From positions 1 to 64,000 of the forward strand of contig CAMAQH010000008.1 of NCBI GenBank assembly GCA_945860295.1: a stretch of DNA of 64,000 nucleotides, read 5' to 3'. A program made the position numbers and the translations under genes. How positions within the stretch are numbered: the stretch's first letter is position 1; each line of letters begins with the position of its first letter. Positions 30,052 to 39,175 of the stretch are shown in pieces. Below the pieces are notes generated by a model that was not told the DNA's origin, ran no database searches, and saw nothing but the letters and a program-made list of their open reading frames with translations. The DNA comes from Prosthecobacter debontii. Its GTDB lineage: Bacteria > Verrucomicrobiota > Verrucomicrobiia > Verrucomicrobiales > Verrucomicrobiaceae.

Positions 30052-30957
30052 CTACAACTCATCATCCGAGATCGCTGCAAAGACATCGCGAGATGGCAGT
30101 GGCCGATCCTCGCGGAGAGCGCGGGCATCTTCCACATCCTCTGCCAGGACTCGGTCACTTTGAATCATCGCGGGTGGTAGGGGCGAAAGCAGGGCGTCGA
30201 TAATCGTCGGCTAGTCGGCGGCATCACGCATGATGTTTCCAGGGTGCAGATCACTCAACACCCAGGCTTGCTCATGCTCCCAGAGAATCCATACCGCACG
30301 GCGAAAACGCGCGCGGCACGGCACAGCGCGGATTCGATCTAGCGCGATGAGGCGATCTGCATCCAGATCCTTGTAGGGATAGGCCAGCGGCTGCTTCACC
30401 ACTAGATAGTCACCTTGTTCGTCGATGCCGACGAGTTCCGTGGGGTGAGCGCCCGCATCATGCAGGACGATGAGTTTTTCCATCGTCTCGATTAGCACCG
30501 CATCACGCACGGTCATCTCAAATCCCTGGTCGTCTGGATAGCGGTCGATTTCAAAAGTCTTGCCCAGGCCACCACTGGCATGAAGTGGAAAGAGCTTATA
30601 GACCACCTGCCAATCCGCATCGGCAAAAGGGCTGGCCTCGGCCCCAGTCTTCAGCGGCTGCATGTAGCGGGAGATCAAGTGATCATCAGGATCTCTGCCA
30701 ATGCCCAGGCCATCTAGCCGGATCAGTGGGACGCCCCACTCTCGGGATCTTTTGGCAACAAGGGCTGCCCAAACATCAGGCGTAAACGGTTGCCGGGATG
30801 GAGCTTGTCGAGCTGCTTCCTGGATTCCTTTCGCTCGCTGTCTGTTAAGGGCAGAGCAAGCTGCGCGATCTCCTTCGGAGAAGAGGGCCGTCGCGATGGC
30901 TGTCTCGCGCCCTGTCCGGAAGTCGAAGTTGGATTGAGTGCTAGCGTTTCCATTCAC
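30052..30957 (-). pseudogene. Putative polyvalent protein kinase gene interrupted by an amber codon
   Basis: The 248-codon frame 30957-30211 ends just after the kinase catalytic-loop-like motif L-S-D-L-H-P-G-N-I-M. The TAG (30211-30213) is followed in the same frame by P-T-I-I-D-A-L-L, resembling the metal-binding strand normally present after that loop, then 45 further codons (E-D-V-E-D-A-R-A-L-R-E) to TAG at 30052-30054. The stop therefore removes the metal-binding Asp and tail. In the N-terminal 230 bases a second frame (30953-30723, 76 codons) is also open and has higher GC at third positions by hand count, so a frameshift near 30725 is possible. Polyvalent kinases are usually found in phage and mobile-element proteins. 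A 38-codon separate downstream ORF (30168-30052) is the alternative reading. Confidence 0.65.
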
Positions 30958-31444: not shown

Positions 31445-34411
31445 ATGATCGTCATGCGTAATACTCTCTGCGCCATTTTGATTCTTTTAGCTGGGACAGC
31501 ATTTGTCTTCGGCCAAGCCCCCCCACCCGCAGCTCCGGCAAAGCCAGGCACACCCGCAGCTCCAGGTGCCGCACCTGCTTTGGCTGGAGGCGCGCTTAGC
31601 ATTCAAGCGGAGACCGAGGCATTGATGAATGCCGGACTGGCTCTCTTTCAAGAAGCCAAATACACCGAAGCCATAGCGAAGATCGCTGAGGCTGAAAAGA
31701 ACCTGAATAACAAGCCCTTCCCACAGATCCTCTTCGTCAAAGGCGCATCCTACTTCAATCTGAACGACTACCCTAATGCCATCACGGCACTGGAGGCCTA
31801 TCAGACAAATTTTGCTGACGGTGAATATATCAATCCAGTGCGTCTTGCCTTGGGTCGTAGTTATATCAACAAAGGCGAGCCAGACAAAGGGATCGAGATT
31901 CTCAAAGCCGTGGTGACTAGTGCACCAGCTATGAAAGCTGAGGCGGGTCTCTTTGTCGCCGAAGCTCTCAAAAAACAGGGTAAAAATGATGAAGCTCTCA
32001 GCGTGCTCAAGTCACTCATCGCCGATGGCACACGCAGTGCAGAAGGCATTCAGGCAGCGATGATGGCGGCAGACCTCCATGTGGCCAAAGGCGAACTGGA
32101 TGAAGCGGGAAAGCTGATGGAAAACATCAAAGGATTTGCCAGCGGCGGCGACAACGTGGCGCAGATGAACAACATTTACCTGAAGCTGGGCGACCAGATG
32201 TTGGAGAAAAAAAGCTTCCGCGAGGCGCTCGGTGCTTACCAATTAGTGCGCAGAAAGGCTGAGATCAGTCGCTTGCAAAAAGACGTGATCTCCAAACTGG
32301 AGTTAAGCCTCAAAACCCCTGGGAAAGGCCCAATCAAAGGCACCAAAGAAGAACTTGAAGAGAAACTGAAGACCAACAATGCTCTGCTTGAAGAGATCGA
32401 AAAACGCTCTGATTACGATGCTTCGCTCTATTATCGCCTAGGCCGCTGCTATTATGAGATGGCTCGTCTTTGGGAGTCCATCTTGGCCTTTGATGTGATC
32501 GTGAAGGACTTCAAGGAATTCCCACAGCGTGACCGCTGCATGTTTGGCATGATCATCGCCAATGCCCAGCTCAAGCGTGTCAAGGCAGCCCGCGAGCTAT
32601 GTGAAAAGTACATCTCGGATTTCCCGGATGGCGCTGACTTGGGTACGGTATCCGAAATGTTCGGTATGTTAGCCTATGAGAATGGCAAATTGCAGGACGC
32701 GGCTGATGCCTTCAATAAAGCTGAGGGCTTTCCCAAAGCAGATAAAGAGAGACTGCGCTTTCTGCGTGGCAACGTTCTCTTTGAGTTGCAGCGCTTCGAC
32801 GATGCCCGCACGACCTTTGAGTTATTGGTCAATGAGTTTCCCCAATCCGCCTACAAAGATGATGCTCTGTATCGCGTGGCTCTGATCTACTTCTACCAAA
32901 ACGATTCGATCAATACATCGAAGGCCCTGAAGAACTACATGAAGGAGAACCCGAAAGGTCAATACATCGTAGATGCGCGTTATCGCTTAGCCTTTATCAA
33001 ATTCCAGGCTCGTGATATCGAAGGTGTCATGACTGACCTTGAGGGCATTATTAAAGATGCGCCGAATGATCCGAATGTGGGTCAGGTTTATGCCCTTCTC
33101 GGTGACGGCTTCAATCAAAAGGGAGATTATGACAAAGCTCTGGAGAACTTTGCCTTAGCCGTGGACAAAGCAAAATCAGACGACGTGCTTAGCTACACCA
33201 TGGATCAGGCAACAGATCTGTATGCTTCTAAAAATCAATGGAAGCAGCTTGGTGACATGTGGGATAAATACCTGAAAACTCACAAGGACAATGAGCAGCA
33301 GGAACTCAAGGCGGTGCTCTGGATTTCCCGCGCCCGAGTGAAGGAAGGCAAGCCAGACGAAGCTAAAAAACTGCTCTCAGACGCAATCAAGCCCAAGATA
33401 CCAAATCCAGCCAATGAACAGGTCGAAGGACTCATTCAGCAACTCGTCACGCTGGTGACACCGAAGCGCCGTGCCCGCCCAGCATCTGCGCCAATCGCAG
33501 TCCCCACTGCCGATGGTGCCGCTTCTCCAGCTGATCCAGCGGCCAAGCCTACTGAAACTGCACCAGCGATACCGCCTCCCTCTCCTGTTGCCACTTTCGA
33601 AGAAGTCGAAAAACAACTCGAAGCCCTATTGACTCCCCCTGAAGCGGCCATGAATGGCACAGCCCAGATGCGCATTCTATTTGCCAAGGCTTGGCTTGCG
33701 AAAACGATGCGTGAACCAGCTAAATCCGAGAAGTTCTTCACCATCATCATCGAAGTGGCCAAACCTGACGATTTGAGTCCGATGTTGCTCGCGACAGTGG
33801 GTGACAATGCCCGCAAGAAAGGTGACCTAGACAAAGCAGCAGGCTGCTACAACCGCCTGAACGAATTCTTCAAAAATACCGAATACGCAGATGGTGCCTC
33901 GGTGGGCTTGGCTGAAATCGCTTTTGAGAAGGGTGAGAATGATAAGGCTCTCGAACTCTTCACCAACGCCATTGAGGGTTACCAAGGCAGTTCACGTCTG
34001 CTTGATGCGACGCTCGGCAAGGCCAAAACACTCTACAAACTCAAGAAATACGACGAAGCCAAAAAGCTCTACGACGACATCATCAACACCAAGGAATGGC
34101 GTGGAGAGGCTCATGCTACAGCGCTCTTCATGCAGGGTGAAATGGAGTTTGACCAGAAAAAGTGGGGTACGGCCATTCCCTTCTACCAACGCGTCTTCAT
34201 TGCCTATCAGAAGTGGAAACCCATCATGGCTAAAGCCTATGTTCAGTGTGCGCGTGCCTTTGTTAAATTCGATCGCCCAGGTGAGCCGCCGGATCGGAAA
34301 TACTCAGACCGTGAAGCTGCGAAAATTTTGCTTATTGAAATGACCAAGCGTCAAGATCTCCAGACCCTCCCAGAGATGAAAGAGGCCCAGCAGGAACTCA
34401 GCAAATTGTAA
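31445..34411 (+). CDS. Large secreted TPR-repeat protein of an Exb-type system
   Basis: About 988 residues. A signal peptide (about 1-24, ending V-F-G-Q-A) is followed by a Pro/Ala-rich linker, then many tetratricopeptide-like helical pairs (A-L-F-Q-E-A-K-Y-T-E-A-I, S-Y-F-N-L-N-D-Y-P-N-A-I, D-A-R-T-T-F-E-L-L-V-N-E-F-P and similar). A second Pro/Ala linker at about 675-725 splits the repeats into two blocks. It first lies upstream of a smaller TPR protein, ExbB and two ExbD; spacing (23 bases to the next gene) suggests one operon. Inference: a periplasmic or outer-membrane-facing partner of the ion-driven motor, analogous to CpoB/YbgF in the Tol system. The frame is open from a GTG at 31406; ATG 31445 fits the signal peptide. 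Confidence 0.85.
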   Translation: MIVMRNTLCAILILLAGTAFVFGQAPPPAAPAKPGTPAAPGAAPALAGGALSIQAETEALMNAGLALFQEAKYTEAIAKIAEAEKNLNNKPFPQILFVKGASYFNLNDYPNAITALEAYQTNFADGEYINPVRLALGRSYINKGEPDKGIEILKAVVTSAPAMKAEAGLFVAEALKKQGKNDEALSVLKSLIADGTRSAEGIQAAMMAADLHVAKGELDEAGKLMENIKGFASGGDNVAQMNNIYLKLGDQMLEKKSFREALGAYQLVRRKAEISRLQKDVISKLELSLKTPGKGPIKGTKEELEEKLKTNNALLEEIEKRSDYDASLYYRLGRCYYEMARLWESILAFDVIVKDFKEFPQRDRCMFGMIIANAQLKRVKAARELCEKYISDFPDGADLGTVSEMFGMLAYENGKLQDAADAFNKAEGFPKADKERLRFLRGNVLFELQRFDDARTTFELLVNEFPQSAYKDDALYRVALIYFYQNDSINTSKALKNYMKENPKGQYIVDARYRLAFIKFQARDIEGVMTDLEGIIKDAPNDPNVGQVYALLGDGFNQKGDYDKALENFALAVDKAKSDDVLSYTMDQATDLYASKNQWKQLGDMWDKYLKTHKDNEQQELKAVLWISRARVKEGKPDEAKKLLSDAIKPKIPNPANEQVEGLIQQLVTLVTPKRRARPASAPIAVPTADGAASPADPAAKPTETAPAIPPPSPVATFEEVEKQLEALLTPPEAAMNGTAQMRILFAKAWLAKTMREPAKSEKFFTIIIEVAKPDDLSPMLLATVGDNARKKGDLDKAAGCYNRLNEFFKNTEYADGASVGLAEIAFEKGENDKALELFTNAIEGYQGSSRLLDATLGKAKTLYKLKKYDEAKKLYDDIINTKEWRGEAHATALFMQGEMEFDQKKWGTAIPFYQRVFIAYQKWKPIMAKAYVQCARAFVKFDRPGEPPDRKYSDREAAKILLIEMTKRQDLQTLPEMKEAQQELSKL

Positions 34412-34434
34412 TCCCTTTCCGCCTTATTTATCCA

Positions 34435-35340
34435 ATGCCACGCATCGTTTTCATGCTTCTGACAGTCATCGTCCTTCTGGTGGGTGAGGCAAAGGGTCAG
34501 TTCATCATCCTCAAAGATGGCAGCCGCATTCCTCAATCGGAATTCACGATTGAAGGCGGTAAAATCATCCGCACCATCGCCATTGGCGACAACAAAACAG
34601 CTACCACTCAACTGCCAAAGCAAAATGTCGGCTCACTCGACTGGACAGATGTCACCGAACTATCTGATGCGCGCTCGCTGATGGCTCAAGGCAAGAGTGA
34701 GGAAGCATTGGCGATGCTGGCAAAAGCCAAAGATTTCTTTGGCACCTTTGAAGACCTTCCAGGAACACCTTATGTCGATGTTTTCTTCGCTTATGTGGAG
34801 GCTCTGAGCCAAGCAGGAAAGTTTGAAGATACGATCAAGCTCATTCCACAACTCAAAGCCTTGAAGTTATCTGACAGCCAGAAGATGAAGCTACGCATCA
34901 TTCAGCTCGACATCGACCGCCAGACCTCCTCGGAATACACCAGCATCCTTGCCGAGGCTGAGAGCATCCTCTCTGAAACGGATGATTCCGCCGTGGGTGC
35001 TGCCCTCTGGGCGATCATAGCCGACATCCACGGACGCAAGAAGGAATGGGAGAAGGCGCTCATGGCTTACCTTCGTATCCCGGTTTTTTACGGCACCCAG
35101 ATGCAGCGCGTCCCTGATGCTGAATTGAAAGCGGGTCAGATGCTCGCCAAAATGAAACGTTTTGAAGATGCTCAAGCCGCCTTCAAACGCTTAGTTGATA
35201 GTTATCCAGGTTCTGTCGTGGCTGAATCAGCTACTAAGGAACTGGCCGCCATCAACGGTATGAAAAACGAGCCTGAAGAACCTGCTGAGAAAAAAGAAGA
35301 AGCTAAAGCTGCTGAAGCGGCGCCCGTCCCTGCCAAATAA
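34435..35340 (+). CDS. Secreted TPR protein, second gene of the Exb-type operon
   Basis: A 301-residue protein with signal peptide (about 1-21, E-A-K-G-Q). The N-terminal about 70 residues are beta-rich (F-I-I-L-K-D-G-S-R-I-P), then TPR-like helices (A-R-S-L-M-A-Q-G-K-S-E-E-A-L-A-M-L, E-D-A-Q-A-A-F-K-R-L-V-D-S-Y-P-G). The tail is a charged Glu/Lys/Ala/Pro segment. It probably works with the larger TPR protein in the periplasm. ExbB starts 33 bases later. Confidence 0.82.
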   Translation: MPRIVFMLLTVIVLLVGEAKGQFIILKDGSRIPQSEFTIEGGKIIRTIAIGDNKTATTQLPKQNVGSLDWTDVTELSDARSLMAQGKSEEALAMLAKAKDFFGTFEDLPGTPYVDVFFAYVEALSQAGKFEDTIKLIPQLKALKLSDSQKMKLRIIQLDIDRQTSSEYTSILAEAESILSETDDSAVGAALWAIIADIHGRKKEWEKALMAYLRIPVFYGTQMQRVPDAELKAGQMLAKMKRFEDAQAAFKRLVDSYPGSVVAESATKELAAINGMKNEPEEPAEKKEEAKAAEAAPVPAK

Positions 35341-35373
35341 CACCTTTCCCAAACCTCCAAGCCAACTAGTCCC

Positions 35374-36234
35374 ATGCAAAACCGTACATCCGCCACACTC
35401 ATCCAGACTGTCGTCCGCGCCTCCGCTTGCGCCATGATGCTGTTTGGTAACTTCGCCATTCTTGCTCCTATTCATGCTCAGGAAGCAGCTGCGCCCGCAG
35501 CCGCTGAAGCTGCTGCTCCGACTAAGGTCGAGCATACCCTCATGGACCGCATCCATGAAGGTGGCTGGGTGATGTATCCGATTGGTATCTGCTCAGTGGC
35601 GCTAATCTGGCTCGTCGTCGATCTATGGATGCGCACCAGCATCAAGAAGATGGCTCCGGTCGGCCAAGTGAGCCAAGTTCAGGATCTTTTCCGTGCAGGC
35701 GACTATGTGGGTGCCTACCAGTTCTGCAAAAATAACAACGCTCCTTTTTGCGATGTGTCGCGAGTAGCGCTGAGCTTTGTGGGTGATGGAGAGGCAGCTG
35801 TAGAAACTGCGCTTTTCACTGAATTGAATAAGGTCAACTCAACGATTACCACCCGCATCAATTACCTTTCAGTGATCGGAGTTTGCACGCCGATGATCGG
35901 TCTGACTGGAACGGTGACTGGGATGATGAGCGCCTTCGCTACACTGGGTTCCAGCGGCGTGGGTGATCCTTCCAAGCTATCGGGTGCTATCGGTGAGGTG
36001 CTCATCGCCACGGCTTCCGGTCTCTTCATTGCCGTGCCTGCCTTCATGTTCTTCTACTTCCTGCGTAATCGCCTTCAGTCAGCGATCAGCGGCCTACAGG
36101 AAGTGGTAGGAGCCTTGTTCCGCAAGATGCCATACTCACACCTTAAAGACGCCCACGTCGGTGAAGAAGAGTTCTACGCGGCCATCCCAAACTGGGTTGC
36201 TGGCGGCGACCATGCGGCACCTGCGGCGGCTTGA
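35374..36234 (+). CDS. exbB: MotA/TolQ/ExbB-family proton-channel protein with N-terminal leader
   Basis: A 286-residue protein. An N-terminal hydrophobic leader and Ala-rich linker (about 1-50) precede three TM helices of the ExbB/TolQ core: about 62-82, then the pair near 165-190 (C-T-P-M-I-G-L-T-G-T-V-T-G-M) and 205-230. The G-L-x-G-T-V-x-G-M motif is the family hallmark. With ExbD it forms a proton-driven motor in the inner membrane. The cleavable-looking leader before TM1 is unlike enterobacterial ExbB but known in environmental relatives. Confidence 0.92.
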   Translation: MQNRTSATLIQTVVRASACAMMLFGNFAILAPIHAQEAAAPAAAEAAAPTKVEHTLMDRIHEGGWVMYPIGICSVALIWLVVDLWMRTSIKKMAPVGQVSQVQDLFRAGDYVGAYQFCKNNNAPFCDVSRVALSFVGDGEAAVETALFTELNKVNSTITTRINYLSVIGVCTPMIGLTGTVTGMMSAFATLGSSGVGDPSKLSGAIGEVLIATASGLFIAVPAFMFFYFLRNRLQSAISGLQEVVGALFRKMPYSHLKDAHVGEEEFYAAIPNWVAGGDHAAPAAA

Positions 36235-36286
36235 GTTCAAAACGGATTCAAATTAACGGATTTTTAAACTTTAAACTAACACCACT

Positions 36287-36718
36287 ATGGGCGGAGGAGG
36301 AGGCGGTGAAGGCGAACCGGAGTTTCAAATTGCTCCAATGATTGATGTGTTGCTTGTGCTACTCATTTTCTTTATGAGCATCACCTCAGCGCAAGTGTTG
36401 AGAATTGATAAGGACATCAAGCTGCCTGTGGCGGCGGACGCAAAAAAGAAGGAAGGTAAGAACGCTATGTTCGAAGCCGCCATCAACGTCCGTTGGCTCT
36501 CAGGCCAGCAGAAATCCAAGATCAAGCTCGATGATCGGGAACTGCCCAACGAGGAAATCGTTGAGGCACTCACTCAGCGAAAAAACAGCAATTCCACCTA
36601 CCGGGTCATTATACGCGGCGACCGCGATGTTCCCGCAGTGGAGATCCAGAAAGTTATGGCGCTGATCGCACAGTCGGGCATCGACGACATTTCATTCTCT
36701 GCACTTAACAAGGACTAA
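36287..36718 (+). CDS. exbD: ExbD/TolR-family protein, first copy
   Basis: A 143-residue protein starting with a Gly-rich cap, then F-Q-I-A-P-M-I-D-V-L-L-V-L-L-I-F-F-M, the single TM helix with the proton-coupling Asp, and a periplasmic TolR-like domain (V-I-I-R-G-D-R-D-V near residue 113). It pairs with ExbB and with the second ExbD 5 bases downstream. Two different ExbDs imply a heteromeric TM pair in the motor pore. Confidence 0.93.
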   Translation: MGGGGGGEGEPEFQIAPMIDVLLVLLIFFMSITSAQVLRIDKDIKLPVAADAKKKEGKNAMFEAAINVRWLSGQQKSKIKLDDRELPNEEIVEALTQRKNSNSTYRVIIRGDRDVPAVEIQKVMALIAQSGIDDISFSALNKD

Positions 36719-36723
36719 ATTAC

Positions 36724-37194
36724 ATGTCTCACGGCAAGAAAAAGCACCACAGCATCGACGAAGACAATGTCGTCATGGGTTTCCAGATCGCACCCATGAT
36801 CGACGTCGTCTTCGTTATCATGCTATTCTTCATGGTCATGGCAGGTGCCGTGAAGGTCGAGCGTGAACTCAAGACGCAACTACCAGGCGTCGGAACCCCC
36901 GCACTCAGTGACGAACAAACTCCACCAGATGAGATCATCGTCACCATAGAAGAAGCTGGAGTCGTCACATTAAACGAAGAGGAATTCGACACCCCGGACA
37001 ACAAAACGCTCCCCAACTTCACCTCCACTCTCATGAGGCTAAAGCAGGAGGCCGACAGCCGTAACGCCAAGGTTATGGTCACCATCCAAGCCGAGGAGCA
37101 AGCCCGCTACGAGCGCGTCATCGATGTGCTCAACTCAATGTCTAAGGCCCGCATCACCAATGTGACCTTCACAGTTGGTAGCGAAGAGTTCTGA
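36724..37194 (+). CDS. exbD: ExbD/TolR-family protein, second copy
   Basis: A 156-residue protein with a His/Lys-rich cytoplasmic cap and the TM segment G-F-Q-I-A-P-M-I-D-V-V-F-V-I-M-L-F-F-M bearing the conserved Asp, followed by a periplasmic domain (V-M-V-T-I-Q-A-E near 118). It is only moderately similar to the first copy. It is the last gene of the operon; no TonB-like or TolA-like gene follows, and the operon is closed by the terminator at 37213. Confidence 0.93.
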   Translation: MSHGKKKHHSIDEDNVVMGFQIAPMIDVVFVIMLFFMVMAGAVKVERELKTQLPGVGTPALSDEQTPPDEIIVTIEEAGVVTLNEEEFDTPDNKTLPNFTSTLMRLKQEADSRNAKVMVTIQAEEQARYERVIDVLNSMSKARITNVTFTVGSEEF

Positions 37195-37212
37195 TCAAAC
37201 CTGCAAACTCAT

Positions 37213-37252
37213 CAACAAAAAGCCCCAAGCATTCGCTTGGGGCTTTTTGTTG
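37213..37252. terminator. Bidirectional intrinsic terminator between exbD and aguA
   Basis: A perfect 18-bp inverted repeat (37213-37230 and 37235-37252) with an ATTC loop. The stem has a GC core (AGCCCCAAGC) flanked by A5 on the left and T5 on the right, so it works as an intrinsic terminator on both strands. It lies between the convergent exbD and agmatine deiminase genes. Confidence 0.95.
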
Positions 37253-37269
37253 TGAGGCTTCTGAACCTA

Positions 37270-38316
37270 TTACTTCGGCTGGTGCATGGCGATGCAGTGG
37301 AGTCCGCCGCCTTCCATGACGAGGTCTTTGCAGGTGACGGAGATTATCTCGCGGCCAGGAAAGCACTCGGCGATTTTATCTTCAGCAATCTGGTCCTTTT
37401 TCTTCTGCCCGAAGATGGGGACCATGATGCAATTGTTCAGCATCATGAAATTGGCGTAGCTAGCTGGTAGGCGGCTGAGACGCCAGTCCTTGACCTCGAT
37501 AGCTGTGGGCATTTCGATCTCTATGACCTCTAGCTTGCTGCCGTCGGCCGTGCGGACGTCGTCAAGTTGTTCGCGGATCTGTTTCAGGACTTTGAAGTTG
37601 GGGTCAGACTCCTTGGACTCGACCATGCAGATAACGGCATCTTCACGGATGAAGCGCACGATGTCATCGACGTGACCGTCTGTATCATCTCCTTCGATGC
37701 CTGCTTTGAACCAGACGATGTCGGAGACGCCGAGCATGGCTTTGAGTTCCTTTTCAACTTCGTCCTTCTTACGTGCCTTTCCTCCATTGCGGTTCGGATT
37801 GAGTAAAACAGCTTCGGTGGTGAAGAGGAGACCTTTGCCATTGGTTTCGATCGCGCCGCCTTCAAGAACCATATCAGAAGTGAAGCGCTCCATTTTCAGG
37901 GAAGCTGCCGCTTTCTCTGGGATCAGATCATCGAGTTCATAAGGGAACTTACCGCCCCAGGCATTGAACTTCCAGTCGGTGATCGCGACCTGACCGGTTT
38001 CATTATGCTTGATGAAAATCGGACCGTGGTCCCGGCACCAGACGTCGTTGGTATTGTTCTCATAAATGTCCACCTGACTGAGATCGCCTTCATTATCTGC
38101 TATGCTAAGGCGGATGTTCATGTGGCTGAGCATCGGCGCATTGATCCGCACGCGCTCGTAGCGGGAGATAGTGCTGGCGATCTCTCCAAACTTGTCTTGC
38201 AGCTTGTGAAAGGTCTTGGGGCAGCTCTCCTTGTTTGATGGCCAGGATAACCAAATGGCTTCCTGGGGTTCAAATTCGGCGGGGAGGTGGTAGTTCTTGG
38301 GGTATCCTTTACTCAT
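37270..38316 (-). CDS. aguA: Agmatine deiminase
   Basis: A 348-residue guanidino-group hydrolase of the agmatine deiminase/PAD family. Visible: P-A-E-F-E-P-Q-E-A-I-W-L-S-W-P at the start, N-D-V-W-C-R-D-H-G-P, L-E-G-G-A-I-E, D-D-T-D-G-H-V-D-D and the catalytic Cys in G-G-G-L-H-C-I near the C-terminus. Reaction: agmatine to N-carbamoylputrescine + ammonia. The start overlaps the end of the amidase gene by 8 bases, so the two are translated from one mRNA and complete the agmatine-to-putrescine route. Confidence 0.96.
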   Translation of the reverse strand: MSKGYPKNYHLPAEFEPQEAIWLSWPSNKESCPKTFHKLQDKFGEIASTISRYERVRINAPMLSHMNIRLSIADNEGDLSQVDIYENNTNDVWCRDHGPIFIKHNETGQVAITDWKFNAWGGKFPYELDDLIPEKAAASLKMERFTSDMVLEGGAIETNGKGLLFTTEAVLLNPNRNGGKARKKDEVEKELKAMLGVSDIVWFKAGIEGDDTDGHVDDIVRFIREDAVICMVESKESDPNFKVLKQIREQLDDVRTADGSKLEVIEIEMPTAIEVKDWRLSRLPASYANFMMLNNCIMVPIFGQKKKDQIAEDKIAECFPGREIISVTCKDLVMEGGGLHCIAMHQPK

Positions 38317-39175
38317 CCAGGTAGCGTTTGGTCAGGGGTGCGTATGTGTCAATGCGTCGATCACGAAAAAATGGCCAAATGCGACGAAAATCTTCCACTG
38401 CTTGCAGATCGCAGGCCATAATCACGATCTCTTCGTCAGACACACTGCCCTTGGCGACTATTTCACCATAGGGATTTGCGACAAAAGACTGGCCCCAAAA
38501 CTCTGTGTCATCCTGGAAACCCGTGCGATTGATGGCTGCAACAAAGCAGCCATTCGCCACAGCATGACCGCGCTGCACGGTCTCCCAGGCGCAGTGTTGT
38601 GCTTTTCCTAGCTCGGCCTTTTCAGAGTCCAGCCAGCCGATGGCTGTCGGGTAAATTAGGATCTGCGCGCCAGCCAGTGCGGTCAGTCGAGCGGCTTCGG
38701 GATACCACTGATCCCAGCAGATGAGCACGCCAATCTTGCCAAATTTAGTATCCCAGACGCAATAGCCCAGGTCACCTGGTGTGAAGTAAAACTTCTCCTC
38801 AAAACCAGGGTCTTGGGGGATGTGCATCTTGCGGTACTTGCCGAGGTAGGTGCCATCCGCGTCGATGATCGCTGCAGTGTTGTGGTAGAGGCCTGGACCA
38901 CGCTTTTCAAAAAGAGAGGCGACGATGACAACGCCAAGCTCCTTCGCCAGGGCAGCCATATAATCAGTTGTCGGACCTGGAACAGACTCAGCCAGATCAA
39001 ACAATGCCGTGTCCTGCCGGGTGCAGAAGTAGGGAATATTGAACAGTTCCTGCAGGCAGATGATTTGCGCCCCCTTCCCTGCGGCTTCACGGATCAGCTC
39101 GTCATGTCGAGCTAGGCTTTCAGCCTTGCTGGCAAACGTTGAGCCTTGAATCAGACCAAGTATAACGACGGACAT
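38309..39175 (-). CDS. aguB: N-carbamoylputrescine amidase
   Basis: A 288-residue nitrilase-superfamily enzyme with the Glu-Lys-Cys triad in C-L-Q-E-L-F, Y-R-K-M-H-I-P and L-I-C-W-D-Q-W-Y-P-E. The last motif and the neighbouring aguA identify it as N-carbamoylputrescine amidase, giving putrescine + CO2 + ammonia. It is cytoplasmic and first gene of the two-gene operon. Confidence 0.95.
   Translation of the reverse strand: MSVVILGLIQGSTFASKAESLARHDELIREAAGKGAQIICLQELFNIPYFCTRQDTALFDLAESVPGPTTDYMAALAKELGVVIVASLFEKRGPGLYHNTAAIIDADGTYLGKYRKMHIPQDPGFEEKFYFTPGDLGYCVWDTKFGKIGVLICWDQWYPEAARLTALAGAQILIYPTAIGWLDSEKAELGKAQHCAWETVQRGHAVANGCFVAAINRTGFQDDTEFWGQSFVANPYGEIVAKGSVSDEEIVIMACDLQAVEDFRRIWPFFRDRRIDTYAPLTKRYLDE

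Follow-up and report, generated by a model that had tools for sequence, protein, structure and literature searches.

A TPR-ExbB-ExbD operon of Prosthecobacter debontii and a family of putative transducers that accompanies it

The stretch of DNA analyzed here, hereafter the window, covers 64,000 nucleotides of Prosthecobacter debontii (phylum Verrucomicrobiota; assembly GCA_945860295.1, contig CAMAQH010000008.1, positions 1 to 64,000 of the forward strand). It contains an operon of five genes encoding two tetratricopeptide repeat (TPR) proteins, TPR1 and TPR2, an ExbB/TolQ-type motor subunit, and two ExbD/TolR-type subunits, ExbD1 and ExbD2 (Table 1). A preliminary description, made from the letters alone, had read the order TPR-TPR-ExbB-ExbD-ExbD on one strand at 31445-37194, and we confirm all five open reading frames (ORFs) together with their Pfam assignments, i.e., TPR models for the first two proteins and ExbD for the last two (E-values of 6.9e-19 and 4.9e-21, respectively). 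The genes are separated by 23, 33, 52, and 5 nucleotides, and TPR1 possibly starts at 31454 (MRNTL...) instead of 31445 or 31406. The MotA_ExbB and ExbD domains score above the cut-off and both ExbDs carry the aspartate of the PMxD motif in their transmembrane segment, which places them in the ExbB/TolQ-ExbD/TolR motor family. On the other hand, Pfam finds neither TonB nor TolA among the operon proteins, and no transducer with a vWA domain adjoins the operon, the next gene (37270-38316) being convergent. An operon devoid of TonB and TolA need not, however, imply that a transducer is absent. On balance, we favor the view that these genes encode a proton-driven motor with TPR scaffolds or adaptors, which would act through transducers encoded by a sixth gene, called X hereafter, and supplied in trans in the genome of the window.

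Table 1. Coordinates of the operon genes and of the hairpin that follows them
Feature	Position	Strand	Description
TPR1	31445..34411	+	988 residues, exported TPR-repeat protein; C-terminal WRGE...FYQRV block conserved
TPR2	34435..35340	+	301 residues, exported; N-terminal beta domain at about residues 23-69, then TPR-type helices
ExbB/TolQ-type motor subunit	35374..36234	+	286 residues; N-terminal leader; MotA_ExbB 1.8e-23 (Pfam)
ExbD/TolR-type subunit 1	36287..36718	+	143 residues; transmembrane aspartate present; ExbD (Pfam)
ExbD/TolR-type subunit 2	36724..37194	+	156 residues; transmembrane aspartate present; ExbD (Pfam)
Terminator hairpin	37208..37256		main stem 37213-37252; precedes the convergent gene 37270-38316(-)

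TPR1, TPR2, and ExbB each begin with a hydrophobic stretch. In an alignment of 24 TPR2 sequences, a glutamine (Q22) is almost invariant after an A/G-type site, and the same kind of site is found in ExbB, with a consensus A (at least 85 %) and then Q (at least 60 %) over 40 sequences. These features bear out the two exported TPR proteins and the leader-bearing ExbB that had been proposed. A looser count, based on an export motif that often matches by chance, agrees with export, and lipobox-like motifs occur in 8 of 79 TPR1 and 1 of 47 TPR2 sequences. Across the loci, all 221 ExbDs possess the transmembrane aspartate (214 recognized by pattern and seven by eye). The AlphaFold2 model of TPR2 has a mean predicted local distance difference test (pLDDT) of 87.5, and its fold neighbors in the PDB are BamD, designed TPRs, and YbgF. 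TPR2 thus resembles a soluble protein released by cleavage and, from this model, would hardly be suited as a transducer anchored in the membrane; the idea of TPR2 as a hidden TonB was rejected because of its cleavage-type N-terminus and predicted fold. The likeness to YbgF could also evoke a Tol-Pal substitute that stabilizes the outer membrane of dividing cells, with TPR1 in the role of CpoB/YbgF. Indeed, TPR1 scores above the tol_pal_ybgF cut-off, and TolB_N has no match at E ≤ 1 in the genome of the window (assembly 95.3 % complete). However, the YbgF matches are possibly a generic TPR signal and the operon contains no Pal or TolB partner (no genome search was aimed at TolA or Pal), and we hold such a substitution to be highly improbable.

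Two sets of loci were used to follow the operon across genomes. The first, chosen by TPR1, comprises 40 neighborhoods from 36 genomes, taken with few matches skipped from the top of a TPR1 search list covering 288 genomes of the phylum. The second, chosen by ExbB, comes from named genomes and consists of the best 80 of 578 stretches confirmed after a search with an ExbB alignment, itself derived from the TPR1-chosen loci. The five-gene order (TPR1, then an ORF in the place of TPR2, then two or more ExbDs) is found in 36 of the 38 TPR1-chosen loci with room on both sides, the two exceptions (L081 and L091) having no detected ExbD; no ExbB was detected in one of the 40 neighborhoods (L082, a 5.4-kb contig). 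In 32 of 39 loci of this set, the ORF at the TPR2 position matches a TPR profile. With the same requirement for room, the five-gene form is found in 34 of 58 ExbB-chosen loci. Because the order TPR-TPR-ExbB-ExbD-ExbD is conserved, a working relation of the TPR proteins with the motor is supported, as far as gene order can indicate it. Variants were observed among the other 24: L126 and L167 display the order ExbB-ExbD-ExbD-X-TPR1-TPR2, and in L146, L148, and L150-L153 no TPR1 was detected, ExbB being accompanied there by a TPR2-like gene and by two or three ExbDs.

In three genomes of the same genus, X is found where the window has the hairpin; it directly follows the second ExbD and encodes a protein of 623-633 residues with a proline-rich N-terminus, one transmembrane helix, and a large C-terminal part. 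Across the loci, X proteins share a histidine-bearing transmembrane helix followed by a box around LEHKVQ...LPD. The histidine is present in 64 of 64 X records, 53 of which display [ST]xxxH; this count leaves out eight records, i.e., four C-terminal halves of X from the genome of the window, which do not include the helix, three duplicate fetches, and L143.7, in which the helix was not located. Among five-gene loci with at least 700 nucleotides downstream, X lies directly 3′ of the operon in 28 of 34 TPR1-chosen and 14 of 28 ExbB-chosen cases, and L062 and L068 have it immediately upstream of TPR1.

Behind this common anchor, the heads of the X proteins differ. Using iterated profiles, the 65 records that continue far enough beyond the helix were sorted into vWA (38), toroid (17, or 15 once two twice-fetched genes are removed), PA14-like (7), a type named after contig C27 of the window's genome (2, a single gene fetched twice), and unassigned (1). 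Pfam, run on 20 X proteins that include one C-terminal half, backs these names above the cut-off in some members only: VWA_3 in L129, VWA_2 in L058, PA14 in L069, and SQHop_cyclase_C in L052, L054, L109, L121, and L130. Ten of the 20 gave no Pfam family at the thresholds used, L056 and L077 gave sub-cut-off matches only, and neither FHA nor TonB_C was found in any of them. The X of contig C16 in the genome of the window matches squalene-hopene cyclase among PDB sequences (9.5e-5), and the best fold matches of the toroid model of L121 (mean pLDDT of 51) include squalene-hopene cyclase, C3d, and GH76 toroids. Unlike heads can also follow each other within one locus. The tandem X pair of L058 (8429-11441), the first member of which carries a SAM domain (Pfam), shares 62 % identity from about residue 7 to residue 236, beyond which one gene encodes a vWA head and the other a PA14-like head. 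L244 and L252 also contain tandem X genes with unlike heads.

We then come to the distribution of X, whose profile was searched genome-wide, together with that of TPR1, in the same 288 genomes. X was detected in 87 of them at E ≤ 1e-3, and TPR1 in 95 at E ≤ 1e-40, 85 of which reach E ≤ 1e-50; a TPR1 match at E ≤ 1e-3, found in 171 of the 288 genomes, was not taken as presence, many of these being generic TPR. X is present in 84 of the 85 genomes with a large TPR1 gene and in 3 of the 203 without (Fisher 5e-68, ignoring relatedness), and these three matches are all weak (5e-5 to 2e-4). When the TPR1 cut is set at 1e-40 instead, the counts are 86 of 95 and 1 of 193. The loci whose operon is not followed by X point the same way: all six in the TPR1-chosen set belong to genomes with X elsewhere, and in the named set, where six of 14 were searched, all six genomes have X (L117, L122, L123, L125, L131, and L138). 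The genome of L128 also has X, its contig being too short to judge adjacency. G035, G050, G159, G227, and G247 gave 16, at least 17, at least 17, at least 17, and at least 17 X matches, together with two or at least three TPR1 matches, and each of these genomes appears to hold a large transducer set.

The genome of the window was searched using the X of a same-genus relative. Matches on C16 (77 %) and C14 (71 %) both run off contig ends, and so do the N-terminal parts on C50 and C35 (55 % each); in addition, a whole X lies on C27 (42 %), and C12 carries a C-terminal piece. The residues at the end of the C50 and C35 parts are identical to those that open the C16 and C14 parts (C14, C16, C35, and C50 being L109-L112). 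Given these shared residues at the breaks, the simplest reading is that the four pieces are two full X genes, probably split by an assembly repeat of near-identical copies. The X profile gives five matches in this genome, C50, C35, and C27 being among the matches listed. The genome contains at least three X genes in trans, none of them within the operon, and this set probably comprises two toroid-headed copies and one with an unassigned head. The latter, on C27 (L113:3015-4652), encodes 545 residues, gave no Pfam family, and stands beside a gene that we take to be gyrB. Among the genes flanking X in this genome, only aat (beside C35) was matched, in two operon-bearing loci of relatives, in addition to two weak ABC matches.

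These results bear on what the preliminary description had concluded, namely that no energy-transfer protein is present and that the TPR proteins may stand in for it. The first part holds for the operon but not for the genome, which has X in trans and a TonB_C protein on C29. The second would make the TPR proteins the link between ExbB/ExbD and the outer membrane, and it can call upon the window operon without a transducer gene, upon the lack of a directly following X in 14 of the 28 named five-gene loci that leave room for one, upon the genomes of L165, L185, and G223 in which no X was found, and upon the TPR-motor linkage seen also in the phylum of a Pirellula-labelled record (see below). 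Against it, X is encoded in trans in the genome of the window and in all 12 checked genomes (6 + 6) without an X directly after the operon, and TPR2 looks soluble and exported. We consider a motor of this kind, working with no transducer, unlikely, and the step from a missing gene to TPR substitutes unsupported in view of how often X adjoins the operon or co-occurs with TPR1.

A TonB encoded elsewhere had also been envisaged. Indeed, the genome of the window has one TonB_C match above the cut-off, on C29, as well as five plug domains of TonB-dependent receptors, and a motor shared with an ordinary Ton system, served by this TonB with the TPR proteins as accessories, would have a precedent in TtpD2, a TPR protein required for the Vibrio TonB2 system in the part of PMC6957404 considered here. 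However, the C29 TonB sits beside its own ExbB and ExbD, and the neighbor of the operon in relatives is X, not TonB; such sharing seems to us quite improbable. Two sub-cut-off TonB_C matches lie near other ExbB/ExbD pairs, and the genome as a whole gives nine MotA/ExbB and nine ExbD matches.

Several points also weigh against the TPR-motor-X reading that we favor. First, six other ExbB/ExbD pairs in the genome of the window could drive X. The five-gene form is absent from 24 of the 58 named ExbB-chosen loci, which include other phyla as well as L126 and L167 with their altered order. Concerning the co-occurrence, the TPR1 cut of 1e-50 was chosen after seeing the gap from 1e-54 to 1e-47, which dropped ten genomes (1e-40 to 1e-50) from the 95; the X and TPR1 profiles were built largely from neighboring genes; at most 17 X and the three best TPR1 candidates were scored per genome; and the Fisher value disregards phylogeny. 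The X profile found nothing in G223, which has a large TPR gene, nor in the genomes of L165 (Kiritimatiellaeota-labelled, with TPR, TPR2, ExbB, two ExbDs, and a weaker TPR1 match) and L185 (Omnitrophota-labelled, with the five-gene form). The constancy of the X histidine is owed partly to seed selection, the 32 X seeds having been picked by a required [STAG]xxxH motif. Finally, the toroid-head model is of low confidence.

In the mechanism that we propose, an ExbB pentamer around an ExbD1/ExbD2 pair would form a proton-driven motor of the 5:2 type. As the TPR proteins look exported, and TPR2 soluble, we take them for a putative periplasmic scaffold or adaptor of this motor, TtpD2 from Vibrio providing a genetic precedent (PMC6957404). 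X, predicted to be anchored in the inner membrane with a TonB/TolA-like layout, would dock on ExbB via its histidine-bearing helix, and force would leave the motor through X, the exchangeable heads of which (vWA, alpha/alpha toroid, or PA14-like) would extend into the periplasm. In the genome of the window, X would be supplied in trans and driven by this motor and not by another ExbB/ExbD pair. More tentatively, the five genes may be a general-purpose power unit driving interchangeable transducers, with a shared anchor and unrelated heads, encoded partly in trans and numbering at least 16 in some genomes; if so, one motor type would serve many envelope tasks. A motor almost invariably accompanied by its own transducer family, the heads of which are swapped between unrelated domains, would represent a further machine powered by the proton motive force, beside Ton, Tol, and Agl. 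A short gene list results, i.e., TPR1, TPR2, ExbB, ExbD1, ExbD2, and X.

As for the cellular task, polysaccharide uptake was suggested by the neighbors of trans X genes and then dropped, sulfatases not being enriched versus the control. We examined ten trans X loci from two X-rich genomes (L242-L251), running Pfam on 19 chosen neighbors there, with a further one in L258. A neighbor encoding a sulfatase, GH95, GH29, GH78, or a carbohydrate esterase was found at six of the ten. At two others, the neighbors were LacI- or AraC-type regulators or a PfkB kinase, and at L244 an FAD oxidoreductase; in L247 the chosen neighbors gave no Pfam family. Sulfatases are present at 4 of the 10 X loci (5 genes) versus 7 of 20 regions taken at round coordinates of the same contigs (12 genes), and the two genomes hold at least 118 and 101 sulfatase matches. 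The glycosidase part of this control is biased, its queries being drawn from the X loci themselves.

The five-gene order, which the preliminary description had proposed to look for in Verrucomicrobiota and Planctomycetota, is common in the former, as the counts above indicate, and one Omnitrophota-labelled locus (L185) also has it. X was not found in any of seven genomes labelled as other phyla, L185 among them. In L171 (Desulfobacterales), a protein with a histidine in its transmembrane helix, missed by the X profile, is encoded between the TPR gene and ExbB. In the phylum of the Pirellula-labelled record (199 genomes), the best TPR1 match is 1.1e-44 and 32 genomes have a match at ≤ 1e-20. 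Among 20 regions, each from a different one of the 32 genomes, ExbB comes just after the TPR gene in 14, ten with one detected ExbD, and none has the five-gene form, a shorter TPR-ExbB-ExbD form being found instead. L224 is the sole case among the 20 with an X-profile match (E ≤ 0.01), after TPR-ExbB. The genome of the window also has a second TPR-motor set on C65 (L092:6440-10203), arranged as ExbB-ExbD-TPR (818 residues), an arrangement seen also in L120, L180, L183, and L186.

Downstream of the operon, the hairpin has a folding energy of -37.3 kcal/mol (z -8.32), and none of 200 shuffles was as good. A and T runs flank it on both sides, so that termination in both directions is plausible; of the strong two-way terminator described previously, the strength is thereby borne out. 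The pattern-based scan of the window did not list this terminator, and promoter and terminator pattern scans gave no more matches than in shuffled sequence. The two genes that follow on the minus strand (37270-39175) are presumably a polyamine pair, one for agmatine deiminase and the other for a carbon-nitrogen hydrolase. Upstream, also on the minus strand, lie a gene for a 3-keto-disaccharide hydrolase domain protein (PF06439, 29364-30002) and an ORF with no Pfam match at E ≤ 0.01 (30211-30957). The closest named relative of the window ExbB is on a contig labelled Verrucomicrobiaceae (85 %), and another is on one labelled Prosthecobacter (72 %), in keeping with the family of the organism. The genes flanking the operon had no match among the loci of 16 relatives.

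Compared with Ton (ExbB-ExbD-TonB) and Tol-Pal (TolQ-TolR-TolA), the system has the same kind of motor subunits, the transmembrane aspartate, and a transducer helix of the histidine type. On the contrary, no TonB_C transducer is encoded with the motor, two ExbDs and TPR partners are present, and the genome has no TolB_N match. The Vibrio TonB2 system, as presented in the portion of PMC6957404 cited above, resembles it by a TPR protein encoded with the ExbB/ExbD/TonB set and needed there, but this protein is single and last in the operon, and the transducer is a true TonB. Closer in its part list is the Agl-Glt core of Myxococcus xanthus, which comprises GltD and GltE (TPR), AglR, AglQ, AglS, and GltG according to Table 1 of PMC3169522: two exported TPR proteins, one TolQ, two TolRs, and a transmembrane transducer, a list that the window matches only when X in trans is counted. 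The operon could then be the Verrucomicrobiota counterpart, by common descent, of this trafficking or gliding-type machine, the core genes of which are, in the part of PMC3169522 considered, clustered in some non-gliding bacteria too. However, GltG has FHA and TonB_C, both absent from the 20 scanned X proteins, and TPR2 does not match the GltE profile at E ≤ 0.01; we hold such a descent to be quite improbable.

The nearest likeness is with bacteria of the Planctomycetes-Verrucomicrobia-Chlamydiae (PVC) group, for which vWA transducers beside TPR-tolQ-tolR-tolR have already been published, the transducer helix being modeled, via its histidine, on the site of the motor that TonB and TolA also use (main text of PMC12204202). 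The window shares with this neighborhood the adjacent TPR gene, the tolQ-like gene, and the unlike tolR-like pair, X shares the transmembrane anchor and conserved histidine, and relatives of the window possess the adjacent vWA transducer. The window operon differs by having no transducer, X being in trans with toroid or unassigned heads. The window locus is a form of the published TPR-tolQ-tolR-tolR and vWA system, with its transducer probably encoded elsewhere; the Agl-Glt features tested here (GltE profile, FHA, and TonB_C) were not found. The main text of PMC12204202, supplements apart, never contains the terms prenyltransferase, PA14, or squalene-hopene, and priority for non-vWA heads is not certain. 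To this published system, the present analysis adds the exchange of heads between tandem X genes, X encoded in trans, and non-vWA heads.

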